Assembly (NCBI GenBank): GCA_902615855.1
Contig: CACMQN010000003.1
Location: 62,001-126,000 of the forward strand
DNA: 64,000 nt
Direction: 5' to 3'
From: an uncultured Candidatus Actinomarina sp.
GTDB taxonomy: Bacteria; Actinomycetota; Acidimicrobiia; Actinomarinales; Actinomarinaceae
Shown: piece after piece, positions 50,163 through 63,033 of the stretch
Numbering within the stretch: the first letter of the stretch is position 1
Layout: every line of letters starts with the position of its first letter
Position numbers and translations under genes: made by a program
Notes under the pieces: generated by a model
Database searches by the model: none
What the model was told of the DNA's origin: nothing
The model's input: only the letters and a program-made list of their open reading frames with translations

Positions 50163-51020
50163 CTATTGAAATTCACCAACAAAAATAATTTCTTCTTCTA
50201 AATCAACTCCAAATTTTGATAAGACACTTTCTTTTACATGCTGAACTAACTTATATAAAGAAGAAGCCTTAGCATTTTTTTTAGCTATAAAAAAGTTTGC
50301 ATGCTTTTCGCTTACACTTACACCATCAATGTCATATCCTTTTAAGCCAGCTTTTTCAATTAACTCCCCTGCGTAAAATTGGCTTGTGTTCTTAAAGACA
50401 CTTCCTGCATTGTAAATTCCAGGAGGTTGGGTATCTTTTCGTATTTTATTATATTTCGATAAAAGTTTGTTTATTTCCTTAGTATCTCCCTGTTCAATTT
50501 TTAATCCAGCACTTAAAATAATTTTATTATCTAGATTTTCAGCTCTTCTGTAAGAAAAGTTAAGATCTTTTTTTTCTATTTCTTGGACCTCAAAACTGTT
50601 TAAGTCAAAATACCTTATAGAGTTAACTAAATCTGAAAACTCCCAACCGTAAGCACCAGCGTTCATCTTAACTGCTCCTCCAACTGTCCCTGGTATACCA
50701 ATTAAAAATTCACCATTAGCAATCATGTTTGCCTTAAAAAACCTTGAGAGTTTTGGTAAAAATACTCCTGACCCAACAATAATTTCGGATTCATTTTTCG
50801 TTTCAATCTGATCGAATTGTGGAAGAATAACGTTTCCATTAAAACCTCTATCAGAAAATGCGATGTTTGAACCTTTTCCTATGACAAAGTTAGTTTTGTT
50901 TTGTAATAAATTTTTTAATTTAGGTAAGTCATTTTCTGAATCAAGGATAATAAAGTTTTCACAGACACCCCCAAATCTATAGGTTGTTACATCTGAAAGT
51001 TTTACACTATTTATTTTCAT
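50163..51020 (-). CDS. murB: UDP-N-acetylenolpyruvoylglucosamine reductase
   Basis: TTYRFGG, VIGKGSNIAFSDRGF, IGIPGTVGGAVKMNAGAYG, PPGIYNAGSVFKN. Confidence 0.96.
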   Translation of the reverse strand: MKINSVKLSDVTTYRFGGVCENFIILDSENDLPKLKNLLQNKTNFVIGKGSNIAFSDRGFNGNVILPQFDQIETKNESEIIVGSGVFLPKLSRFFKANMIANGEFLIGIPGTVGGAVKMNAGAYGWEFSDLVNSIRYFDLNSFEVQEIEKKDLNFSYRRAENLDNKIILSAGLKIEQGDTKEINKLLSKYNKIRKDTQPPGIYNAGSVFKNTSQFYAGELIEKAGLKGYDIDGVSVSEKHANFFIAKKNAKASSLYKLVQHVKESVLSKFGVDLEEEIIFVGEFQ

Positions 51021-52317
51021 CTAAATACCTTAATATCTTTGGGCCAAGTAATGTGATATCTCCAGCTCCTAATGTTAATATTACATCTCCAGGTTTTACT
51101 TTTTGAGCTAAATATTCTGGTACAAATCTTATTGATTCAAGATATTTAACATTCTTTCCCTCAAAGTTTTTACTAGTTATACCTGGAATAGGAGATTCAC
51201 CCGCAGGATAAATGTCTAGTACTATCGAAAAATCCGAACTTTGCAAAGATTTTTTAAATTCATTAAAGTATTCTTTAGTCCTTGTGTAGCGATGTGGTTG
51301 AAAAATAACATATAATTTATTCTTTGCAATATTTTTCATTGCCTTTATTGTTGCGTTCATTTCTGTAGGATGATGGCCATAATCATCATAAACATAGATG
51401 GAATCTGCTATACCAATCAGTTCAGTTCTTCTTTTAACACCTGGAAAAGATTTAACTGCCTTTAAAGAATCTTCGATTTTGACTCCATTTTGATAGGCAA
51501 GTATTACTGCTCCAATTATGTTTGATTTAAAATGGTCTCCAATTAATTTTGTTTCAAAATTGTATTTCGTTTTATTATGTATAAAACTATCTTTAGTTTT
51601 AATGTAAAAATCGGCATTTTTAGTTTTTCCATAGGTTGCAGTTTTTTTCTGTGATTTGAATCCTTTTAAATTTTTGTCATCATTATTTAAAACTAGATTG
51701 TCAATAACATTATGCATAACGTTGTAAAATGCAGATTTATAATTCTCAAAATCTCCAAAAAAATCAAGATGATCGCTGTCAATATTTAAAACTAACAAAT
51801 CTGAAATTTTTATATTTTTAAAAGTATTAAATGCCTCATCAGTTTCCAAGATAATAGGCAATGTATCGCTACCATAATGACCACCTATTCCATTAAATGA
51901 TGTGACACCTCCGTATAAGTATGAAACATTTATATTGTTGAAGTGAAAAATATGAGCAAGTAATGCTGTTGTTGAAGTTTTTCCATGCGTTCCAGTAATA
52001 CCAATAATTTTATTATCTTGGGATAATCTTTCTAGATACTTTGGCCGTGAAATAACATTATCTCTATTATCAAATCTAGAAAATTTATCTGACTTTAAGT
52101 TTATAGCACTTGAATATATGTAAAGACATTCATTATCAAAAGGTATCATCTTTTCATCAAATATGACTTTAATTCCATCCTGGTTGAGTAAGTTTGTGAT
52201 GTAAGATTTTCTTTGATCATACCCCGTAACATCGAAGCCTTTTTGTTTTAGATACTTTGCAATTGAGCTCATACCTGAACCCCCTACTCCAAGAATGAAA
52301 ACTTTTTTAAATTTCAT
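51007..52317 (-). CDS. murC: UDP-N-acetylmuramate--L-alanine ligase
   Basis: FILGVGGSGMSSIAKYLKQKGFDVTGYD, GITGTHGKTSTTAL, YDDYGHHPTEM; start set at internal ATG (MKFKKV). Confidence 0.96.
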   Translation of the reverse strand: MKFKKVFILGVGGSGMSSIAKYLKQKGFDVTGYDQRKSYITNLLNQDGIKVIFDEKMIPFDNECLYIYSSAINLKSDKFSRFDNRDNVISRPKYLERLSQDNKIIGITGTHGKTSTTALLAHIFHFNNINVSYLYGGVTSFNGIGGHYGSDTLPIILETDEAFNTFKNIKISDLLVLNIDSDHLDFFGDFENYKSAFYNVMHNVIDNLVLNNDDKNLKGFKSQKKTATYGKTKNADFYIKTKDSFIHNKTKYNFETKLIGDHFKSNIIGAVILAYQNGVKIEDSLKAVKSFPGVKRRTELIGIADSIYVYDDYGHHPTEMNATIKAMKNIAKNKLYVIFQPHRYTRTKEYFNEFKKSLQSSDFSIVLDIYPAGESPIPGITSKNFEGKNVKYLESIRFVPEYLAQKVKPGDVILTLGAGDITLLGPKILRYLDENK

Positions 52318-53341
52318 TCTTGAGTTCACTAATTATGCTATTGATGATTTTGTCATTTCCGCTTGTAAATAATTCATTTTTTTTGATATGTTTAAACCAG
52401 TCTTTTTTTAAACTATCTAATTTTAAAATCTCTGATTCAAAATCCTCATAACTTTCGCATATTTTTGCGAGTTTTTTATTAACAAGATACTCAGCGTTTT
52501 TTTGTTGGTGGTTTGAAGTTGTACCGTATCTATATGGTACCAAAATTAAAGGTATCCCTAAAATAACTGGCTCAAGAACACCCCCTCCAGATCTTGAAAT
52601 TTGGATATCAATTTCTGAATAAAAATCATTCATATTTTCAACATAATCTATCTGTTTGTATCCTTTATAAATTCTTGTAGAGTCAATATTTTTTGGACCA
52701 ACAATATGAATAAACTTGATATTTTTTAATTCATAATTATCTAAAAATCTAAACAATAAGTTATTAATTTCTCTTGATCCTTGACTACCACCCATAACAC
52801 CAATAACTAATTTATCTTCAATAATTTTATTTCTTGTTAAATTGCTACTCATTATTGGTCCTACATAACTTATTCTTTTTTTATTGATTTTTTGTGTATC
52901 TGGAAAGGATGTAAAAACTGTACCGTTTACATATGATGCTATTTGATTTCCTAGCCCTGCATAAATATTTTGTTCTTGTATAAAAATAGTCTTCTTATGA
53001 ATTAAAGCTATTGCAGCTGCGAAAGGGGCTATGTATGATCCTGTTGTAAATATTGCTTTAGTATTATCGAGATCCATTTCTTTTTTTATATTTATATAAG
53101 TGTTAATTTGTTTAAATATGTTTAGAAAATATCCAATCTTTCCAATTTCTGATCTGTAAATATTTATAGTGGAAATTTTTATATCTAAATCTGAAAGAAA
53201 TTTAGCACCTCTTTTGTCAGTGATAACTTCAATTAAATCCCTTTGAAAACCCTTATTGAGTAAATCTGATATTAAATATTTAACAGGTAGTACATGTCCG
53301 CCTGTACCAACACAAAAAAAGGCTATTTTATTATGTTTCAT
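52307..53341 (-). CDS. murG: MurG glycosyltransferase
   Basis: CVGTGGHVLPVKYLI, IQEQNIYAGLGNQIASYV, GVMGGSQGSREIN, SRSGGGVLEPVILGIPLILVPY. Confidence 0.95.
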   Translation of the reverse strand: MKHNKIAFFCVGTGGHVLPVKYLISDLLNKGFQRDLIEVITDKRGAKFLSDLDIKISTINIYRSEIGKIGYFLNIFKQINTYINIKKEMDLDNTKAIFTTGSYIAPFAAAIALIHKKTIFIQEQNIYAGLGNQIASYVNGTVFTSFPDTQKINKKRISYVGPIMSSNLTRNKIIEDKLVIGVMGGSQGSREINNLLFRFLDNYELKNIKFIHIVGPKNIDSTRIYKGYKQIDYVENMNDFYSEIDIQISRSGGGVLEPVILGIPLILVPYRYGTTSNHQQKNAEYLVNKKLAKICESYEDFESEILKLDSLKKDWFKHIKKNELFTSGNDKIINSIISELKNEI

Positions 53342-54426
53342 AATTTAGAATAACCAATTGCTAAACCAGCAAATAAAGCCACCATGGCACTACTACCATA
53401 AGAAATAAAAGGAAGGACAATACCGGTTATTGGTAATAATCCAACAGCACCGCCAAGGTTAATCACTACTTGTATCAAGACCCATGCTCCTAATCCAGAA
53501 AATACAAGTTTTTTAAATTCACTTTCTGTTGATATTGATAATCCAAATAAAGATACAATTAAAAGGCTTAGGATAATCATAAAAATTACTAAACCTACAA
53601 ATCCATACTCTTCGCCAATTATAGATACAATAAAATCAGTATGAGAATTAGGAAGCATCCCCCATCTTGCACGAGATGTACCAGGTCCCAAACCAAACAT
53701 ACCGCCCGAACTTATGGCTATTCTACTTTGATTGAGTTGAAAGCAGTCACCTAATAAATCTATACCCTTGTCACAGTCTCCATTTATCCAAGTTAAGATT
53801 CTGTTCCATCGGTAATTTCCAGATATTGCAAGAAAATATAATGGAACTATTGATAAAGATAAGATACCAACTGGAAACTTTAAATTGATTTTTGAGAACA
53901 GAATTTGTGCTAGAACTATACCAAATATAGTAATTGTTGTTCCATAGTCTGGTTGAAGATAGATAAAAAGACAACACATTAAAGGAAGAATCATCGCTCT
54001 TTTTAAATAAAATAATTCAGAATATTTTGAATCCATGTTCGATAATTGATAAGCAATCCACAATATAATCAACGGTTTAGCTATTTCACTTGGTTGAAAG
54101 TTTATTACACCTAAATCAACCCATCTTCGACTTCCACCTCTAACAATTCCATAAGTTAAAACAAAAAATAGTGATGTTGTAATAAATAAAATAGAAAGAT
54201 TAATCAATTTTTCCCGTATTGAAATATTTATTTTTTTACCAATATTGAATATCACGATACCAATTAAAACAGCAGCAATATGTCTTTTTATAAAATAAAA
54301 GTTATCACTGTATTGATTCATTCCTTGAACAGACGAAGCTGAAATATTTACTAAAACACCAAAGGTTACAAGAAACCAAATGGAGAAAAGATTTAATCTT
54401 TGAAAAAATAAATATGAAAGGTTCAA
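53338..54426 (-). CDS. ftsW: FtsW peptidoglycan glycosyltransferase (SEDS)
   Basis: GSRRWVDLGVINFQPSEIAKPLIILWIAY, LQPDYGTTITIF, LPNSHTDFIVSIIGEEYG, LPFISYGSSAMV. Confidence 0.95.
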   Translation of the reverse strand: MNLSYLFFQRLNLFSIWFLVTFGVLVNISASSVQGMNQYSDNFYFIKRHIAAVLIGIVIFNIGKKINISIREKLINLSILFITTSLFFVLTYGIVRGGSRRWVDLGVINFQPSEIAKPLIILWIAYQLSNMDSKYSELFYLKRAMILPLMCCLFIYLQPDYGTTITIFGIVLAQILFSKINLKFPVGILSLSIVPLYFLAISGNYRWNRILTWINGDCDKGIDLLGDCFQLNQSRIAISSGGMFGLGPGTSRARWGMLPNSHTDFIVSIIGEEYGFVGLVIFMIILSLLIVSLFGLSISTESEFKKLVFSGLGAWVLIQVVINLGGAVGLLPITGIVLPFISYGSSAMVALFAGLAIGYSKL

Positions 54427-55634
54427 TTTAGCCCCCTTTTTATATTTTTCACTATTGATTTAAAGAAATCACCTCTTGCAATGTAATTTTTAAAATCGTT
54501 AAAACTTGAACCGCCACACGAAAACAAAATATTATCAAATCTTTCAAATTCTTTCTGAAGGATGTCCTCTAAATCAAAAATTGTTTCTATTTCTTCAACT
54601 TCACAATTAAATAAATCTTTATTGAGATTCATATCTTTAGGAATGATTACTTTTTTGATTTCATCAGATAAAATAAGGTCACTTGTAGGAATTTTTTTTG
54701 TTATTCCATGCATGATGAGTAAAGCATTTTTCACTCGTTGACTTGCTGATGATACTGAGTGAAAATTTGTTGACTTTGAGTCATTAATGAAATTTGTACC
54801 ATTAATATTTTCAAAATTTTCAAATCGATGTTCTGTATATAATTTAATTTTTAAAAATTTATATGCTTCTTCTAAATCAAGATTTAATTTGTTAACAATT
54901 TTAAGGAATGCAAGGGAAGTATCAATCGGGTAGTTCGATAATTTAAGATCAAACTTTTTAATAAAATTTCTATTTATTTTTTCCTCTGATGGAATTCGTA
55001 AAATATCTTCAAGTTTTAATGAAGATATTGTATTTTTACCAACAATAAGATTTTCATTTGTTTCTAAAAAAGACAATAACTTTATTTTTGAATTTTTATA
55101 TTCTTCTATATTTCCATGCCAATCAAGATGATCAGAATGAAAATTCAAAAAAACTCCAAAGTCTATTTTAAGATTTTTTGAATAAAAAAGTTGAAAACTT
55201 GAAAGTTCTACAACAGCATAATTTTTTTGATTAGATTTAAACTCAAGTGGAGAAATACCTACATTTCCACATGCAATTGATTCGATTCCATTTTCATTTA
55301 GAAAATTGGATAATAAATTAACAAAAGTTGTTTTACCATTTGTCCCAGTCACTCCAATAAACACTCCTTCAAATTTACTAGAAAATAAGTCAATATCAGT
55401 GAATACTTTTTTTTCAGGAAATTCATTTAGCAATTTATGATCGGGTTTGATCCCGGGAGAAACTATTATTTCTTCAATTTGTTTTAATTGTGATTCTTTA
55501 AATACTAATTTTTCGTTTATACCTTTTAATAAATCTAGATTATCATCGTAAATTAAATATTCTTTGGATATTGTCTTTAGATATTTTTCAACAGATTGGC
55601 CTGTCTTGCCGTAGCCAAGAATCAAAGATTTCAC
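54423..55634 (-). CDS. murD: UDP-N-acetylmuramoylalanine--D-glutamate ligase
   Basis: GVTGTNGKTTFVNLL, LNFHSDHLDWHGNIEEYKNSK, FINDSKSTN. Confidence 0.94.
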   Translation of the reverse strand: MKSLILGYGKTGQSVEKYLKTISKEYLIYDDNLDLLKGINEKLVFKESQLKQIEEIIVSPGIKPDHKLLNEFPEKKVFTDIDLFSSKFEGVFIGVTGTNGKTTFVNLLSNFLNENGIESIACGNVGISPLEFKSNQKNYAVVELSSFQLFYSKNLKIDFGVFLNFHSDHLDWHGNIEEYKNSKIKLLSFLETNENLIVGKNTISSLKLEDILRIPSEEKINRNFIKKFDLKLSNYPIDTSLAFLKIVNKLNLDLEEAYKFLKIKLYTEHRFENFENINGTNFINDSKSTNFHSVSSASQRVKNALLIMHGITKKIPTSDLILSDEIKKVIIPKDMNLNKDLFNCEVEEIETIFDLEDILQKEFERFDNILFSCGGSSFNDFKNYIARGDFFKSIVKNIKRGLN

Positions 55635-56693
55635 TTAATTTCCAAACAATACCCAGTCTGCATAAAATAGACCGAGCCCCATTACGATAAATATACCGTT
55701 AATTATCCAAAATCTAACAATAATTGTTGTCTCTGCCCAATTACTCATCTCGAAATGATGATGAATTGGTGTCATTTTAAAAATTCTTTTCTGTTTGAAT
55801 TTAAATGAAGATACCTGCAGAATGACTGATAGAGCTTCAAATATATAAAGGAAACAAAAAAAGAAAATTAAGCCATCGGCACCCAATGATATTAAAATTA
55901 TCGGAAACATAGCACCTATAAAATGAGATCCCACATCTCCCATAATTATTTTTGCAGGATTTGTATTCCACCATAAAAAACCAAGTGTAGAACCAGCTAA
56001 AGCGGATATAAGTGTTGATAGTTCGAGACCGACCATTTCATTATTCATAAAACTTACGTAATAATCTGGGTGTCTAAAAATCCAAAATGAAATAATCAAA
56101 ATACCTCCAAAAGAAACCGAGGATGAACCTGCTACAAGACCATCTAAACCGTCTGTCAAATTTGTTGAATTAGTTATACCTACAATTAGAAAAACTACAA
56201 TAAGCCACTTTATAAATCCAACTTCAAAACCAAATCCACTAAAAAAATAAAATGTTGATGAGTAATCAAGATTGTAAAAATACAAGCTTACGATAGAACC
56301 TACTAAAATTTGTAAAAATATTTTGTAAGTTGGTTTAAGTCCTAAATTTCTATTTTTTCTAACCTTTAAAAGATCATCTATTAATCCAACTAAAGCCATT
56401 AGTGTGCCGAACAAAAGGAGATTAAAAATTACAGAATTAATTGGTATCAATTCAATCTTAAAACCTTTACCAATTGTCCAAAAATTTATATGAGATAATA
56501 CATAACCGGCATAAGTTCCCAAAATGATAAATACACCTCCCATTGTTGGAGTACCTTTTTTATGATCATGAAAGACAACCTCCTCTTGAATGGGTTGGCC
56601 AATATTTCTTGATTTGAAATAATTAACACCAATAGATGTTGACATAATTACGAATAAGAAAGAAATTGCTCCAGATACAATAATTGCAATCAA
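55635..56693 (-). CDS. mraY: Phospho-N-acetylmuramoyl-pentapeptide-transferase
   Basis: KKGTPTMGGVFII, NSTNLTDGLDGLVAGSS, NTNPAKIIMGDVGSHFIGA, MTPIHHHFE. Confidence 0.97.
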   Translation of the reverse strand: MIAIIVSGAISFLFVIMSTSIGVNYFKSRNIGQPIQEEVVFHDHKKGTPTMGGVFIILGTYAGYVLSHINFWTIGKGFKIELIPINSVIFNLLLFGTLMALVGLIDDLLKVRKNRNLGLKPTYKIFLQILVGSIVSLYFYNLDYSSTFYFFSGFGFEVGFIKWLIVVFLIVGITNSTNLTDGLDGLVAGSSSVSFGGILIISFWIFRHPDYYVSFMNNEMVGLELSTLISALAGSTLGFLWWNTNPAKIIMGDVGSHFIGAMFPIILISLGADGLIFFFCFLYIFEALSVILQVSSFKFKQKRIFKMTPIHHHFEMSNWAETTIIVRFWIINGIFIVMGLGLFYADWVLFGN

Positions 56694-58093
56694 AAAAAGC
56701 CTCCAATAGTCTTATTGATGAAATCATTATCATTAAATGGAATCTGTGAATCATTTATTTCTTGATACATTTCATGCCCTTTACCTAATACTAATAAAAC
56801 TGAATTATCCTTGAGTTCATTTATTCCAGATGTTATAGCCTCTTTTCTGTTAAGAATTACAGAAGTTTTTGATAAATCACATCCATTTAAAATATCATCT
56901 GATATTTGGCTAGGATCTTCATCCCTTGGATTATCATTTGTAATTATTACTCTATCTGCTTGTTGGGAAGCAATACCCATAAGTTTTCTTTTGTCTTTAT
57001 CTCTATTTCCTCCAGCACCAAACAAAACGATTACTTTTGAAAAATAAGGATTTACATATTCTATAATTTGAGATATTGATTCTGGAGTGTGGGCATAATC
57101 TACAATTATCTTATTCGTTTTAAAACTAATCAATTCAAACCTTCCTTTAGGATTTTTAAGTTTTGAACTATTTTCAATGATTTGATCTAATTTTTTAACT
57201 TTTGAATAATATGCCATAGAAAAAGCTAGTAAAAAATTTTGATAAAAACTTGGACCAGCAATATCTAATTCAAAATCGTGTATTTTATTATCAATTTCTA
57301 TTTTTAAAATAGTTTTAGGATATGATTCTTTCTCTAGAATTCGTAAATCAGCAGAAGCGTCCGAACCAATTTTAAAAGATGGCAGGGATGAGTTTTCAGA
57401 AATTTTACTACCCCATTGATTGTCTATGTATACATACTTGTCAGATAATTTTTCGGTGAATAATTTCAATTTTGAACTAAAATAATTTTTAATATTTTGG
57501 TGATAATCAAAATGGTCTTGAGACAAATTTGTAAACCCCGATGTATTAAATCTAATTCCATTAAATCTATCTTGATCTAATGCATGAGATGAAGCTTCAA
57601 GAATTATATTGTTATATTTTCTAAAATCTGAGCTTCCAAGTAATTTAAGAATATTAAATAATTTAGGTGAGGTTAAATGCTTTTCATTTGTTATTTCGGA
57701 AAATAAATTTTCTTCATTTGTTCCAATAAAAAGACTATCAGATCCTAATAGTTCTTTTAGATAAAATCCGGTAGTCGTTTTTCCATTTGTTCCTGTAATT
57801 CCAAAGTATTTTTTCGATTTATAGTCATTACAAAGGTAACTGTATGATTCGATAAGTACTTCATCATAATTTTTTGCTTTAATAACTTTCTTATCGTTAA
57901 AACTGCATTTCGAAGATGTAATGACTAGTTTTGCTTTCTTTTTTAAGGATTCGTCTACATATTTGTCAAGCTTATCTTTCCCATCATTATTAATAAATAG
58001 TACTGATCCTTCCTTTACATCTAATGAGCTGTTAACAAAATTTTCAACATCTTTTTGGGAAAATTGTAAATTTGACAACTTTAATTCTTTCAT
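56690..58093 (-). CDS. murE: UDP-N-acetylmuramoyl-tripeptide synthetase (meso-DAP type motif)
   Basis: GITGTNGKTTTGFYL, NLSQDHFDYHQNIKNYFSSK, TNDNPRDEDP (DNPR motif). Confidence 0.95.
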   Translation of the reverse strand: MKELKLSNLQFSQKDVENFVNSSLDVKEGSVLFINNDGKDKLDKYVDESLKKKAKLVITSSKCSFNDKKVIKAKNYDEVLIESYSYLCNDYKSKKYFGITGTNGKTTTGFYLKELLGSDSLFIGTNEENLFSEITNEKHLTSPKLFNILKLLGSSDFRKYNNIILEASSHALDQDRFNGIRFNTSGFTNLSQDHFDYHQNIKNYFSSKLKLFTEKLSDKYVYIDNQWGSKISENSSLPSFKIGSDASADLRILEKESYPKTILKIEIDNKIHDFELDIAGPSFYQNFLLAFSMAYYSKVKKLDQIIENSSKLKNPKGRFELISFKTNKIIVDYAHTPESISQIIEYVNPYFSKVIVLFGAGGNRDKDKRKLMGIASQQADRVIITNDNPRDEDPSQISDDILNGCDLSKTSVILNRKEAITSGINELKDNSVLLVLGKGHEMYQEINDSQIPFNDNDFINKTIGGFF

Positions 58094-58094
58094 T

Positions 58095-59771
58095 TTATTT
58101 ATCCGGAACTAGATTTCTTACAATATTTTTAAATATTGGTGCAGCTGTAGAACCGCCTGTTACATACTCTGAAATAGGAGATCCTTTTGCACCCCATAAA
58201 ATTACTGAACCTACAATTGGTCCTTCATTAGTTTCTATAAATCCTGTAAAAGATGTAGTGAAGCGGTTATCTGAATATCCAATTCCTTCCAAATATGTAC
58301 GACTAGTCCCAGTTTTACCACCTATTACATATCCATTCATTTTTAAGGACTTACCTGTACCATTTTCTCCCTCTACTACCTTAATAAGTAATTTTTTCAA
58401 TCTATTTGATAAATCTGTTGTGATGATTGATTTTTTATTTATACTCTGATTTGATTTTCTTAATAATGATAGTTGAATATCTCTACCGCCATTTGCAATT
58501 ATGCTGTATGCCTTAACCATTTGATATTGGGTGGTGTTAATTGAATAACCTATAGCGAGCGAGCTAAGGCAGGTTTTACATGTATTGTATTCTGTAAATG
58601 AACCTCTAGATTCTCCAGATAGCTCTACACCTGTTCTTGAACCAAACCCAAACTTTTTTAAAAATTCTTCTATATCATCAATATTGGAATTTTCTACAAT
58701 TTTTATAGTTCCAACATTAGATGATCTTTCTATAATTTCTTCAACAGTAATGTTAAACGGCTCATGCTTTAAAAAATCTTTGAAACATCCTTGTAGACCT
58801 TCATAATTATCATTACATGATCCTTCAATAATTTCTATCTCATCTTCAACTAGGTATGATTTTTTCTCATTTACATGATCAGAATCTAATAAAGACCCAA
58901 TAGTGAATATTTTTAGCGCCGAACCGGGTTCGTAGTTTGCTCGTAAACTTATTAAGTCAATATTAAAATATTTGTTATCTGAAGATGATACTTCTGAAGA
59001 AATCAAAACTTCGCCTGTTAAAGAATTTGCAAAAACAACTGAACACTTAAATGCTCCAGTATCAATTAATGCATTATTACAAAGATTTTCTGTCAAATAT
59101 TGTAACTCTGAGTCGATCGAAAGAATTAAATCTTCTCCATGTTTTGGTTGAATTGTTTTAATCTCACCTTGTGGAATTATTGCCCCATTTGGCGCTGATT
59201 CATATCTTAATTCTCCATTTTCTCCCTGTAGATGATTATCAAAATATAGCTCAATCCCCTCAATTCCATTTCCATCTGGATCAACTAACCCTATCAAATT
59301 TGACGTTGATTCATCATAGACATTTCTTTTGTTTGATTGCTCTAAATGTACTCCTTTATAATTCCAAGATTTTATTTTTTGACCAGTTTCAAATTCTACA
59401 TTACGTTTAAGATAAAAAAAGGTAGGATTTTGTGATATTTTTTTTAAAATTTTATTCTCATCGATTCCTAATATCGGTGATAGTACTTTGACGAAACTCA
59501 AATCGCTTATTTCGTTTGGTTTTACCGCTACATTGTAAGATTGAATGCTACTAGCTAGAACATTAAAATGTTTATCATAAATTGTTCCTCTTTTTGCTTC
59601 AAGAACTTCCACTCTTTCTCGGTAAGATAATGCTTGATTTTCAAAATAATCAGATTCAATAAATTGTAAAGAATATATTTTTTGAATAAATAGAAATGAA
59701 CCAAAAATTACGAAAGAAAATATTGTTAAGAATAAAAAATTTAACTTTAATCTGTTTCTATTGAATCTCAT
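58095..59771 (-). CDS. ftsI: Penicillin-binding protein / FtsI transpeptidase
   Basis: RGTIYDKHFNVLA, ANYEPGSALKIFTI (SxxK), SSNVGTIKI, GGKTGTSRTY. Confidence 0.95.
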   Translation of the reverse strand: MRFNRNRLKLNFLFLTIFSFVIFGSFLFIQKIYSLQFIESDYFENQALSYRERVEVLEAKRGTIYDKHFNVLASSIQSYNVAVKPNEISDLSFVKVLSPILGIDENKILKKISQNPTFFYLKRNVEFETGQKIKSWNYKGVHLEQSNKRNVYDESTSNLIGLVDPDGNGIEGIELYFDNHLQGENGELRYESAPNGAIIPQGEIKTIQPKHGEDLILSIDSELQYLTENLCNNALIDTGAFKCSVVFANSLTGEVLISSEVSSSDNKYFNIDLISLRANYEPGSALKIFTIGSLLDSDHVNEKKSYLVEDEIEIIEGSCNDNYEGLQGCFKDFLKHEPFNITVEEIIERSSNVGTIKIVENSNIDDIEEFLKKFGFGSRTGVELSGESRGSFTEYNTCKTCLSSLAIGYSINTTQYQMVKAYSIIANGGRDIQLSLLRKSNQSINKKSIITTDLSNRLKKLLIKVVEGENGTGKSLKMNGYVIGGKTGTSRTYLEGIGYSDNRFTTSFTGFIETNEGPIVGSVILWGAKGSPISEYVTGGSTAAPIFKNIVRNLVPDK

Positions 59772-60091
59772 CTACTGAACCCCATTACTGTAGGATTCAT
59801 TTCTTCAATATCACTAAATTTGTAGGGTGTTTCAAGATCAAGGTTTAAATTATTGACACTAAGTTTGACATAGGACTTAACTTTGGATATGTTTTCAATA
59901 TTTTCAAAAGAATATTTTTTAATGTATTCAACATTTACACTTGCTTTAGTAAGCTCGAGTTCTACTATTTCATAATTAATTGATGAAAGTTCATTTGAAA
60001 TTTCATTTATTTTTATATTTATTATCAACGAAAAAATAACTGATATAGACAAAAGTAAATACACTAAACGAAAGACATATTTTTTTCTCAT
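59768..60091 (-). CDS. FtsL-like small bitopic protein
   Basis: 107 aa, single N-terminal TM plus coiled-coil-like region, between rsmH and ftsI. Confidence 0.65.
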   Translation of the reverse strand: MRKKYVFRLVYLLLSISVIFSLIINIKINEISNELSSINYEIVELELTKASVNVEYIKKYSFENIENISKVKSYVKLSVNNLNLDLETPYKFSDIEEMNPTVMGFSR

Positions 60092-61005
60092 AATTTAACC
60101 ACATACCTTAAGGTTGCAGATTTTGCTCTTGAATTAGTTTTTATTTCTTCATTACTGGGGTAATACTTTTTTTTATTGGGAAACTTAAAACTTTCTACTT
60201 TATTACAAACACATATTGCAATTGAAGGATCACAAGTACAACCAATAGTCAACCCGTTCATAAAATTCTTCACAATTTTATCTTCTAGGGAATGATAAGA
60301 AATACAAATTATCACTCCCTTTTTTAAAATTACATCTTTTATACTTGTTAATGATTTTTTTAACTCATTTATCTCATCATTAACTTGAATCCTGATAGCT
60401 TGAAAGATTCGTCGGATGCTTTTTTCAATGTAAATAGGATTTTGCTTTGGTAGAGCGTCTTTAATAAGTTTTATCAATTCCTTTGTTTTGTAAATAGGCC
60501 GATTGTCTATAATTTTCTTTGCAATTAATTTTGAATATCTTTCCTCTCCATAATTTTGGAAAATTAATGTTAGCTCTTCATAAGAATATGAGTTAAGTAT
60601 ATTTTCAGCTGTTAAAGATTGTTGTTGATTCATTCTCATATCTAAATCTGAATCAATTGAATATGAAAAACCTCTTGAAGGCGTATCTATTTGATGACTT
60701 GAAACACCAAGGTCATATAGAATTCCACTGATTGGAGTAAATGAATTATCTTCTAAAAAGTCGTATATTTTTGAAAAGTTTAAATGAACTACATTATGGT
60801 TGTTCTTACTATTCGCAACAGAATCAAAATCTCGATCAAAACCAATAGCGGTAAATTTATTTTCTGAATCAATAAATTCAAAATGAGATCCATCGCCATA
60901 AGTTGCATCAATGAAATAACCCCCTGGGACATCTTTTAGTAAAGAAGAGATTTCTTCTTTCATAACGCCAACATGTGGCATGTACCCAACCCTGTTTCTG
61001 TTCAT
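60088..61005 (-). CDS. rsmH: 16S rRNA (cytosine-1402-N4)-methyltransferase; start may be ATG at 60981
   Basis: HVGVMKEEISSLLKDVPGGYFIDATYGDGSHFEF, GILYDLGVSSHQIDTPSRGFSYS, CISYHSLEDKIVKNFM. Confidence 0.96.
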   Translation of the reverse strand: MNRNRVGYMPHVGVMKEEISSLLKDVPGGYFIDATYGDGSHFEFIDSENKFTAIGFDRDFDSVANSKNNHNVVHLNFSKIYDFLEDNSFTPISGILYDLGVSSHQIDTPSRGFSYSIDSDLDMRMNQQQSLTAENILNSYSYEELTLIFQNYGEERYSKLIAKKIIDNRPIYKTKELIKLIKDALPKQNPIYIEKSIRRIFQAIRIQVNDEINELKKSLTSIKDVILKKGVIICISYHSLEDKIVKNFMNGLTIGCTCDPSIAICVCNKVESFKFPNKKKYYPSNEEIKTNSRAKSATLRYVVKL

Positions 61006-61092: not shown

Positions 61093-61518
61093 TTATCCTT
61101 TCACTTCGTTAATGTTTGCAAATTCATGATCTGCTTCATTTTGAATTTTTTTCCAGACCTTTGAAGACCAAATTTCAATTGTGTTTCCTGTACCTGTAAC
61201 AGTAACGTCCCCATTAATTGGAATACTGCTGTAATCTCTCAAGTTTTCAGGAATTTGGATCCTTCCAGCTGAATCAAGCTTTGAGTCAACAGCGCCACTA
61301 AATATGGCTCTTCTTAGTTGACGTGATGATTTTTCAGTTACAGGAAGGTCAGCCATTCTTTCTGAGAGAAGTGACCAACTTTTCTTTGTAAGTATCTGTA
61401 GACAGTTATCTTGTCCCTTGGTGACTACACAGCCCTGTTGGAGCTCTCTTCTAAACTTCGATGGAATAACTACTCTACCCTTCGAGTCCATTGTGTGTTG
61501 ATACTCACCAAGGAACAC
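61093..61518 (-). CDS. mraZ: Transcriptional regulator MraZ, GTG start
   Basis: (V/M)FLGEYQHTMDSKGRVVIPSKFRREL...; GTG at 61518 with AGGCGG upstream; the track ATG at 61557 lies within the promoter. Confidence 0.95.
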   Translation of the reverse strand: MFLGEYQHTMDSKGRVVIPSKFRRELQQGCVVTKGQDNCLQILTKKSWSLLSERMADLPVTEKSSRQLRRAIFSGAVDSKLDSAGRIQIPENLRDYSSIPINGDVTVTGTGNTIEIWSSKVWKKIQNEADHEFANINEVKG

Positions 61519-61543
61519 TTTTATCCGCCTTTCGTGCCTTGAA

Positions 61544-61590
61544 CCACTTTGTGTCATTATATGACACTATATGACACTTTGCAACACAAT
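61544..61590 (-). promoter_or_regulatory. mraZ promoter with five-copy MraZ-box-like repeat
   Basis: Reverse strand ATTGTGTTGC/AAAGTGTCAT/ATAGTGTCAT/ATAATGACAC/AAAGTGG, exact 10-nt period; TTGCAA (61579-61584) - 17 nt - TATAAT (61556-61561). Confidence 0.75.
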
Positions 61591-61602
61591 TTTAAAAAAA
61601 AT

Positions 61603-62115
61603 TTATGCTGAAATGAGAAACTCTTTCCACTCCGGATCTGGGTTAGAACCAATAATTGTTTTAATCCAAAAATTACCTTCTGGCTTTAAAGGTGCTTGAA
61701 CTAGCTTTAATATTGTTTGATTTAAATACTTGTCTGCTTTTATAAGATTACATTTTTTACAGCATGCAACAACATTCTGCCATTCGTGTTGTCCCCCTTT
61801 TGATTTTGGAATAATATGATCAATTGACTCTGCTTGGTTACCACAATATTGACAAATATATTTGTCTCGTATAAAAATATTCTCGCGATTTAAAGCAACT
61901 CTTCTAGCATACGGTGCTTTAACATAATAATTCAAGGTAGCAACTTTTGGAATAGTGATTGTTGATGACTCAGATCTTATTTCAAAATTTGAATTTTTTA
62001 TGACATTTATTTTGTTGGATAGTAAAAGTGATATTGATCTCTTGGCTGATGCAATAGAAAGTGGCTGATAAGTTGCATTAAGTATCAACGTTCTATGATT
62101 TTCAAAATTGTTCAT
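61603..62115 (-). CDS. HNH endonuclease domain protein
   Basis: RDKYICQYCGNQAESIDHIIPKSKGGQHEWQNVVACCKKCNLIKADK. Confidence 0.92.
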   Translation of the reverse strand: MNNFENHRTLILNATYQPLSIASAKRSISLLLSNKINVIKNSNFEIRSESSTITIPKVATLNYYVKAPYARRVALNRENIFIRDKYICQYCGNQAESIDHIIPKSKGGQHEWQNVVACCKKCNLIKADKYLNQTILKLVQAPLKPEGNFWIKTIIGSNPDPEWKEFLISA

Positions 62116-62142
62116 AATTAGATTTTAGAAGAGAAAAAGTAA

Positions 62143-62634
62143 TTACGCTTGTAACTGTTGAGATTGGATATCATCTTCAACTCTTGTTAAAAGATTTAAG
62201 AATCTCTCTTTATCAAGCTCGAACTTCGAAATGTCTTCTTCAACTTCTTTGGCAACAAAATCAATAGTTTCAAAGAATGCCAATTGCCCTTGCTTTAGAG
62301 CGTCAAAAACTTCGTTTTCCTCGACTGAATAAATTGTTTCTCCGTCAGAAATAAGTTTTGTTTTTGATAACTGATCTTGTAAATCACCATTTCTGGTTAA
62401 ATACCTCCATGCACGTCTTACTCTTTGAATACTCATTCCATTATCTAATAATGTTTTGATAACTTTAAGTGAAACAATATCTCTAAATGAATATAGTTTT
62501 GGAACTCCTGGCTTACCGAAAGAAGACTGAATACTTGGAGAAACTAATTTAACTTTGTCCCAATACCTTAGTTGATGAGATGTACATCCTGATAAATAGC
62601 ATGCTTGTTTAGATGTAAACGCGTCTTTCTTCAA
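62143..62634 (-). CDS. MerR-family transcriptional regulator (FtsR/Rv1828-like)
   Basis: TSKQACYLSGCTSHQLRYWDKVKLVSPS...YSFRDIVSLKVIKTLLDNGMSIQRVRRAWRYL. Confidence 0.85.
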   Translation of the reverse strand: MKKDAFTSKQACYLSGCTSHQLRYWDKVKLVSPSIQSSFGKPGVPKLYSFRDIVSLKVIKTLLDNGMSIQRVRRAWRYLTRNGDLQDQLSKTKLISDGETIYSVEENEVFDALKQGQLAFFETIDFVAKEVEEDISKFELDKERFLNLLTRVEDDIQSQQLQA

Positions 62635-62682: not shown

Positions 62683-63033
62683 CTATTTGTTTTGTCTAGA
62701 GGTATCTTTGTTTCTTACCAATTTATAGATTTGTTTAAAATTCCACTCCTGAATATTTTCAGCATTGAGTAGCGATCTAGTGTTGGTGACAAAAACATAT
62801 CCTGACAAGGCCATTACTACAAATCCAACAACTGCAAATGCAGCTTGTATTGTATAAGTTCCAATCATTGTGAAAAATCCAAGAATAAAAGTTATGAATG
62901 AAATTGATATTCTAGCTCTTGAAAAATTTGACAATGTTAAATTTTCAACAGCTTTCTCAAGTTTTGGATCATCTTTAGACAGACCCAATTCTATTTGCTT
63001 TAATATTTCTTCTTCTTTTTTATTCAAACCCAT
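62683..63033 (-). CDS. DUF3040-like membrane protein
   Basis: MGLNKKEEEILKQIELGLSKDDPKL then two TM segments. Confidence 0.75.
   Translation of the reverse strand: MGLNKKEEEILKQIELGLSKDDPKLEKAVENLTLSNFSRARISISFITFILGFFTMIGTYTIQAAFAVVGFVVMALSGYVFVTNTRSLLNAENIQEWNFKQIYKLVRNKDTSRQNK

Follow-up and report, generated by a model that had tools for sequence, protein, structure and literature searches.

A putative MraZ operator of five boxes in 10-nt register on the mraZ promoter of Candidatus Actinomarina

The promoter of mraZ in an uncultured Candidatus Actinomarina sp. carries an array of five boxes which, as read from its sequence, very probably serves as the operator through which MraZ represses its own dcw operon, this being the most likely of the explanations considered. 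The array is an operator of known kind, though unusually tidy and strictly conserved. It was found in a stretch of 64,000 nucleotides (the window), whose closest named records are genomes of Candidatus Actinomarina / OCS155, their MraZ being up to 99% identical; the assignment to an actinobacterium, made in a first-pass annotation from the letters of the DNA, is thus confirmed, the genome belonging to Candidatus Actinomarina (Acidimicrobiia). The relevant features are given below, the boxes being putative MraZ sites and the fractions referring to distinct genus loci.

50163..61005, minus strand: dcw cluster downstream of mraZ, tightly packed, on the mraZ strand
61093..61518, minus strand: mraZ, 141 aa, with a conserved GTG start; TIGR00242, PF02381
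61525..61530, minus strand: Shine-Dalgarno (SD) sequence AGGCGG, one mismatch to the canonical anti-SD at the 16S 3' end, CACCTCCTTTCT
61525..61548, minus strand: invariant leader AGTGGTTCAAGGCACGAAAGGCGG, 24 nt from box 5 to the SD, genus-specific
61544..61550, minus strand: MraZ box 5, AAAGTGG, at the expected transcription start; GTGG invariant (37/37)
61554..61560, minus strand: MraZ box 4, ATAATGA, degenerate and merged with the -10; TG 37/37
61556..61561, minus strand: -10 hexamer TATAAT (37/37)
61564..61570, minus strand: MraZ box 3, ATAGTGT; TG 37/37, core base 1 G in 35 and A in 2
61574..61580, minus strand: MraZ box 2, AAAGTGT; TG 37/37, core base 1 G in 32 and A in 5, core base 4 T in 29 and G in 8
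61579..61584, minus strand: -35 hexamer TTGCAA; TTGC 37/37
61584..61590, minus strand: MraZ box 1, ATTGTGT, its final T being the first base of the -35; GTGTTGC invariant (37/37)
61594..61601, minus strand: T tract in the AT-only DNA between the stop of an HNH gene and box 1; five T invariant (37/37)

The five heptads noted in the first-pass annotation lie at exact 10-nt steps on the minus strand, from 61590 to 61544, and the promoter which they were said to overlap, TTGCAA-N17-TATAAT, was recovered by a mechanical promoter scan as the same pair of hexamers with a 17-nt spacer. Spaced by about one helical turn, the TG-centred boxes all face the same side of the DNA, the array reaching from a little upstream of the -35 as far as the expected start. 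The count of five requires qualification: four boxes are good, the remaining one, box 4 (ATAATGA), being degenerate because it is sited on the -10, with which it is merged. Among the 37 genus loci its first core base is always A, and its fourth is T in 27 and A in 10. The 64-kb window holds a single match to the array pattern, against none in 60 dinucleotide-preserving shuffles, and three GTGK cores at 10-nt steps have a single match in the window's genome, at mraZ. The T tract upstream of box 1 is possibly an UP-like element. A separate observation concerns an inverted repeat, TGTCAT-ATA-ATGACA, which is centred on the -10 (61566-61552) and confined to the window's subclade, about 10 of the 37 loci.

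Failure of the repeats to be conserved in close relatives had been set beforehand as grounds for abandoning the operator; the TG of all five boxes is, however, invariant in 37 distinct genus loci, which are close relatives and so not independent. Unlike the box TGs, most inter-box columns are variable among these loci. The invariant TG of box 4 includes the G just after TATAAT, and a further stretch, TGTCATATAATG, is likewise invariant in all 37 (columns counted from the -10). Among GTG-GTG distances in the genus, those of 10, 20, 30 and 40 nt form peaks, with 46, 50, 24 and 27 occurrences vs about 0.7 expected. In 28 of the 39 genus genomes the three-box pattern has a single match per genome, located at mraZ with one stray exception; the others have variants such as GATGT in box 2, or the contig is possibly missing.

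The suggestion that the mraZ start had been misplaced in the open reading frame track proved correct, the start being GTG 61518 and not ATG 61557, and the AGGCGG was found where it had been seen, 6 nt upstream of the GTG. The final two bases of the -10 are also part of the ATG, which should therefore lie upstream of the transcription start, outside the transcript. An in-frame ATG at -39 is present in only 11 of the 37 distinct genus loci, 16 of them have a stop at -33 without any upstream start, and the SD-GTG interval differs by 1-2 nt between relatives, which breaks the upstream frame; the GTG itself is conserved in 66/66 genus loci. The protein started there aligns from residue 1 with the TIGR00242 profile (116.5 bits, curated cut-off 98.35) and, at about 30% identity, with solved Mollicutes MraZ chains, including M. 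genitalium 9QLR. PF02381 matches it in two stretches, corresponding to two half-domains, and both the D-x-K-x-R and the D-x-x-[GN]-R loops are present. A conserved arginine occupies position 15, like that of the E. coli protein, and D11, K13, R15, R23, D82 and R86 are the same in the proteins of M. pneumoniae, M. genitalium and E. coli.

Between box 5 and the start codon lies the leader AGTGGTTCAAGGCACGAAAGGCGG, whose first bases belong to box 5 and whose last bases form the SD; no other invariant run is as long when the 37 genus loci are aligned over 1.7 kb. The first four codons of mraZ (61520-61505) are each represented by one codon in 66/66 loci; at fourfold-degenerate sites of the gene, 26 of 30 vary in the genus. 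All members of the genus carry the AGGCGG mismatch, despite a canonical 16S 3' end (CACCTCCTTTCT). Pairing of CAAGGCAC with the start region GUGUUCCUUG in an RNA hairpin was considered and rejected: it appears in some minimum-energy folds, with z-scores of about 0, and both arms are invariant, which makes covariation impossible. The leader was likewise dismissed as a repeated element, as it remained single-copy in the genome even when matches of 14 nt with one mismatch were allowed.

The box array sits at the mraZ / dcw operon promoter, mraZ heading the dcw cluster and being followed by rsmH, a small ORF at the ftsL position, ftsI, murE, mraY, murD, ftsW, murG, murC and one further ORF; murE aside, the Mur ligases were assigned by Pfam domains and gene order. 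No murF is found between murE and mraY (window 55635-58093); the best MurF-like match of the genome is on another contig (G000:C1:35610-36620), and MurF-like matches were below the curated cut-off in 20/20 genus genomes searched. Directly upstream of mraZ, genes for a small HNH protein and a MerR-type regulator (61603-62634) are preceded by an SCO2097-like gene (62683-63033, below cut-off), and the region is alignable in genus loci.

In the first-pass annotation the boxes were taken for the Mollicutes type, AAAGTG[T/G], set against a TGGGN type of E. coli. This contrast did not hold: the E. coli K-12 mraZ promoter reads CAGTGGGAAATTGTGGGGCAAAGTGGG, i.e., GTGG heptads at 10-nt steps, so that the box type proved neither restricted to Mollicutes nor distinct from that of E. 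coli. AAAGTGG or GTGG cores at 10-nt steps were found in E. coli, the Bacillota lineage, Neomarinimicrobiota and Actinomycetota, and a GTG motif common to B. subtilis, E. coli and mycoplasmas has been described (PMC7761207). Among 89 non-genus Actinomycetota loci, at least two consecutive boxes lie upstream of mraZ in 87 and at least three in 69, vs 0.2 expected from mononucleotide shuffles, and GTG-GTG distances in the class and phylum peak at 10, 20 and 30 nt. A further set of 31 loci, with 30 taken from the same phylum as a Peptococcaceae genome (Bacillota lineage) and one from Neomarinimicrobiota, has at least three boxes in 30/31, almost all GTGG. Since the boxes are common to E. coli, the Bacillota lineage and Actinomycetota, the heptad marks no Mollicutes link; of the claim of a Mollicutes-type heptad in an actinobacterium there remains a contrast in the fourth core base, AAAGTGG-like boxes being widespread.

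This base is T in 108 of 139 Actinomarina boxes (78%) vs 24 of 333 in the rest of the phylum (7%), and G in 309 of the 333 boxes of other Actinomycetota and in 97 of 98 in the Bacillota-lineage set. Comparison with Mollicutes and E. coli MraZ, of the kind proposed earlier as a check, shows residue 84 in the second D-x-x-G-R loop to be Ala in Actinomarina, Mollicutes and E. coli. It is A in 66/66 Actinomarina MraZ, and Q in 48/48 sequences from other Actinomycetota and in 30/30 scored Bacillota-lineage loci (one was not scored). It can be proposed, with rather less than even confidence and from sequence comparison, that a change of Gln84 to Ala relaxed the reading of the fourth base and allowed box 1 to share its T with the -35 TTG, giving the unbroken five-box register. 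In the Actinomycetota and Bacillota-lineage counts Q84 goes with G-ending and A84 with T-ending boxes, and Mollicutes MraZ, also A84, likewise use T or G (PMC5282649). Simple AT drift as the sole cause of GTGT was rejected, as low-GC actinobacteria retain GTGG, with G in 27 of 31 boxes. On the other hand, E. coli has A at residue 84, yet its boxes are GTGG, and Ala would therefore be at most permissive; moreover, within the phylum the loss of Gln84 with T-ending boxes is a single evolutionary event.

Other Actinomycetota mraZ promoters share the AAAGTGG-like arrays and, in part, their register. In the 89 non-genus loci TTG[AC][CA] keeps a set distance from the boxes, the first box core lying at +7 in 23 and at +17 in 28, and any other tested offset accounting for at most 7; shared letters (CA-AGTGG) account for part of the overlap of the first box with the -35. 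In the 23 loci with the +7 offset, which are related and represent fewer than 23 independent cases, the hexamer that follows after 17 nt always carries A at position 2 and T at position 6 (23/23 each) and nearly always G at position 5 (22/23), as in CAAAGT or TAAAGT, such that the -10 coincides with a later box and shares bases with it. The same register, present in about a quarter of the loci (23/89), is found in Actinomarina, with the difference that the -10 there is TATAAT and box 4 lacks the G which the others keep. The box upstream of the -35 stands more often at the GTGG-TTG distance in other Actinomycetota; the GTGT of Actinomarina shares its T with the TTG of the -35 and keeps the 10-nt step. 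The same phasing of the boxes on the -35 was not seen in the Bacillota-lineage loci. A bolder reading, which we regard as rather improbable, would treat box array and sigma hexamers of Actinomycetota as a single composite element, with the -10 serving as one of the boxes; Actinomarina would have broken this compromise by a consensus -10 and, through the loss of Gln84, by GTGT boxes in perfect 10-nt register, and the invariant 24-nt leader with the four invariant initial codons of mraZ would be a second, post-transcriptional layer of dcw control.

With regard to mechanism, an oligomer of MraZ, the product of the first gene of the operon, would bind consecutive boxes side by side and, judging from work in other bacteria, cover the -35, the -10 and the start site, such that transcription of mraZ itself and of rsmH-ftsI-mur-ftsW downstream would be lowered by negative feedback. 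The conflict over the bases shared by box 4 and the -10 would have been settled for the consensus TATAAT, with the box TG kept. That MraZ binds repeats of this kind has been demonstrated experimentally in other bacteria (PMC8475190, PMC5282649, PMC7761207), and deletion of mraZ in M. genitalium led to higher mraW and ftsZ transcripts (PMC8475190). MraZ could nevertheless activate or tune transcription instead of repressing it, and the G after the -10 could have been selected as a discriminator and not as part of box 4.

The repeats might alternatively be the site of another regulator, with MraZ acting elsewhere. The MerR-family gene at 62143-62634 lies close by, two genes upstream of mraZ and on the same strand, and MerR-like proteins such as BldC bind direct repeats. 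We consider this explanation highly improbable, as the same boxes precede mraZ in Actinomycetota, the Bacillota lineage, Neomarinimicrobiota and E. coli and the motif equals the published MraZ site (PMC5282649). Chance periodicity of AT-rich promoter DNA, devoid of a regulatory role, would be in keeping with single heptads that are short and, in one case, degenerate; its probability is negligible, however, in view of the absence of the pattern from all 60 shuffles and of strict box TGs amid variable inter-box columns.

The autorepression operator proposed here can be placed beside those already described. The Mollicutes site, used in these comparisons as quoted from papers, is AAAGTG[T/G] with repeats (AAAGTGKN3)n (Fisunov et al. 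2016, quoted in PMC5282649 and PMC8475190), or (AAAGTGKN3)3 with K being G or T (PMC5282649). As far as it is quoted there, it resembles the Actinomarina array in its direct repeats of a 7-nt box and a 3-nt spacer at the mraZ promoter, in an A84 MraZ, and in being the sole occurrence in the M. genitalium genome, as the array is in its own; it differs in phylum and in having three boxes in the published core formula instead of five, the Actinomarina array being known from sequence alone. The E. coli promoter likewise has its cores at 10-nt steps upstream of mraZ, but these are GTGG and not GTGT, and they are described as lying downstream of the -10 (PMC7761207), whereas the Actinomarina boxes span the -35 to the start. 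The dcw operator of Burkholderia cenocepacia, with four repeats and demonstrated MraZ binding to the fragment, shares 7-nt repeats, 3-nt spacers, the GTG core and a position over the transcription start; its boxes too are located downstream of the -10, in contrast to those of Actinomarina, which lie across the whole core promoter (PMC7761207).

The cross-phylum surprise is thereby mostly removed, and three lineage-specific features remain: T-ending boxes, Ala84 and the invariant 24-nt leader. For an uncultured marine lineage the mraZ start is corrected, and the 10-nt box array emerges as general in the sampled Actinomycetota, the comparison giving its register on the promoter as well. MraZ sites have been tested experimentally in only a few bacteria, and the natural contrast between Q84 with GTGG and A84 with GTGT offers a handle on how MraZ reads its site.
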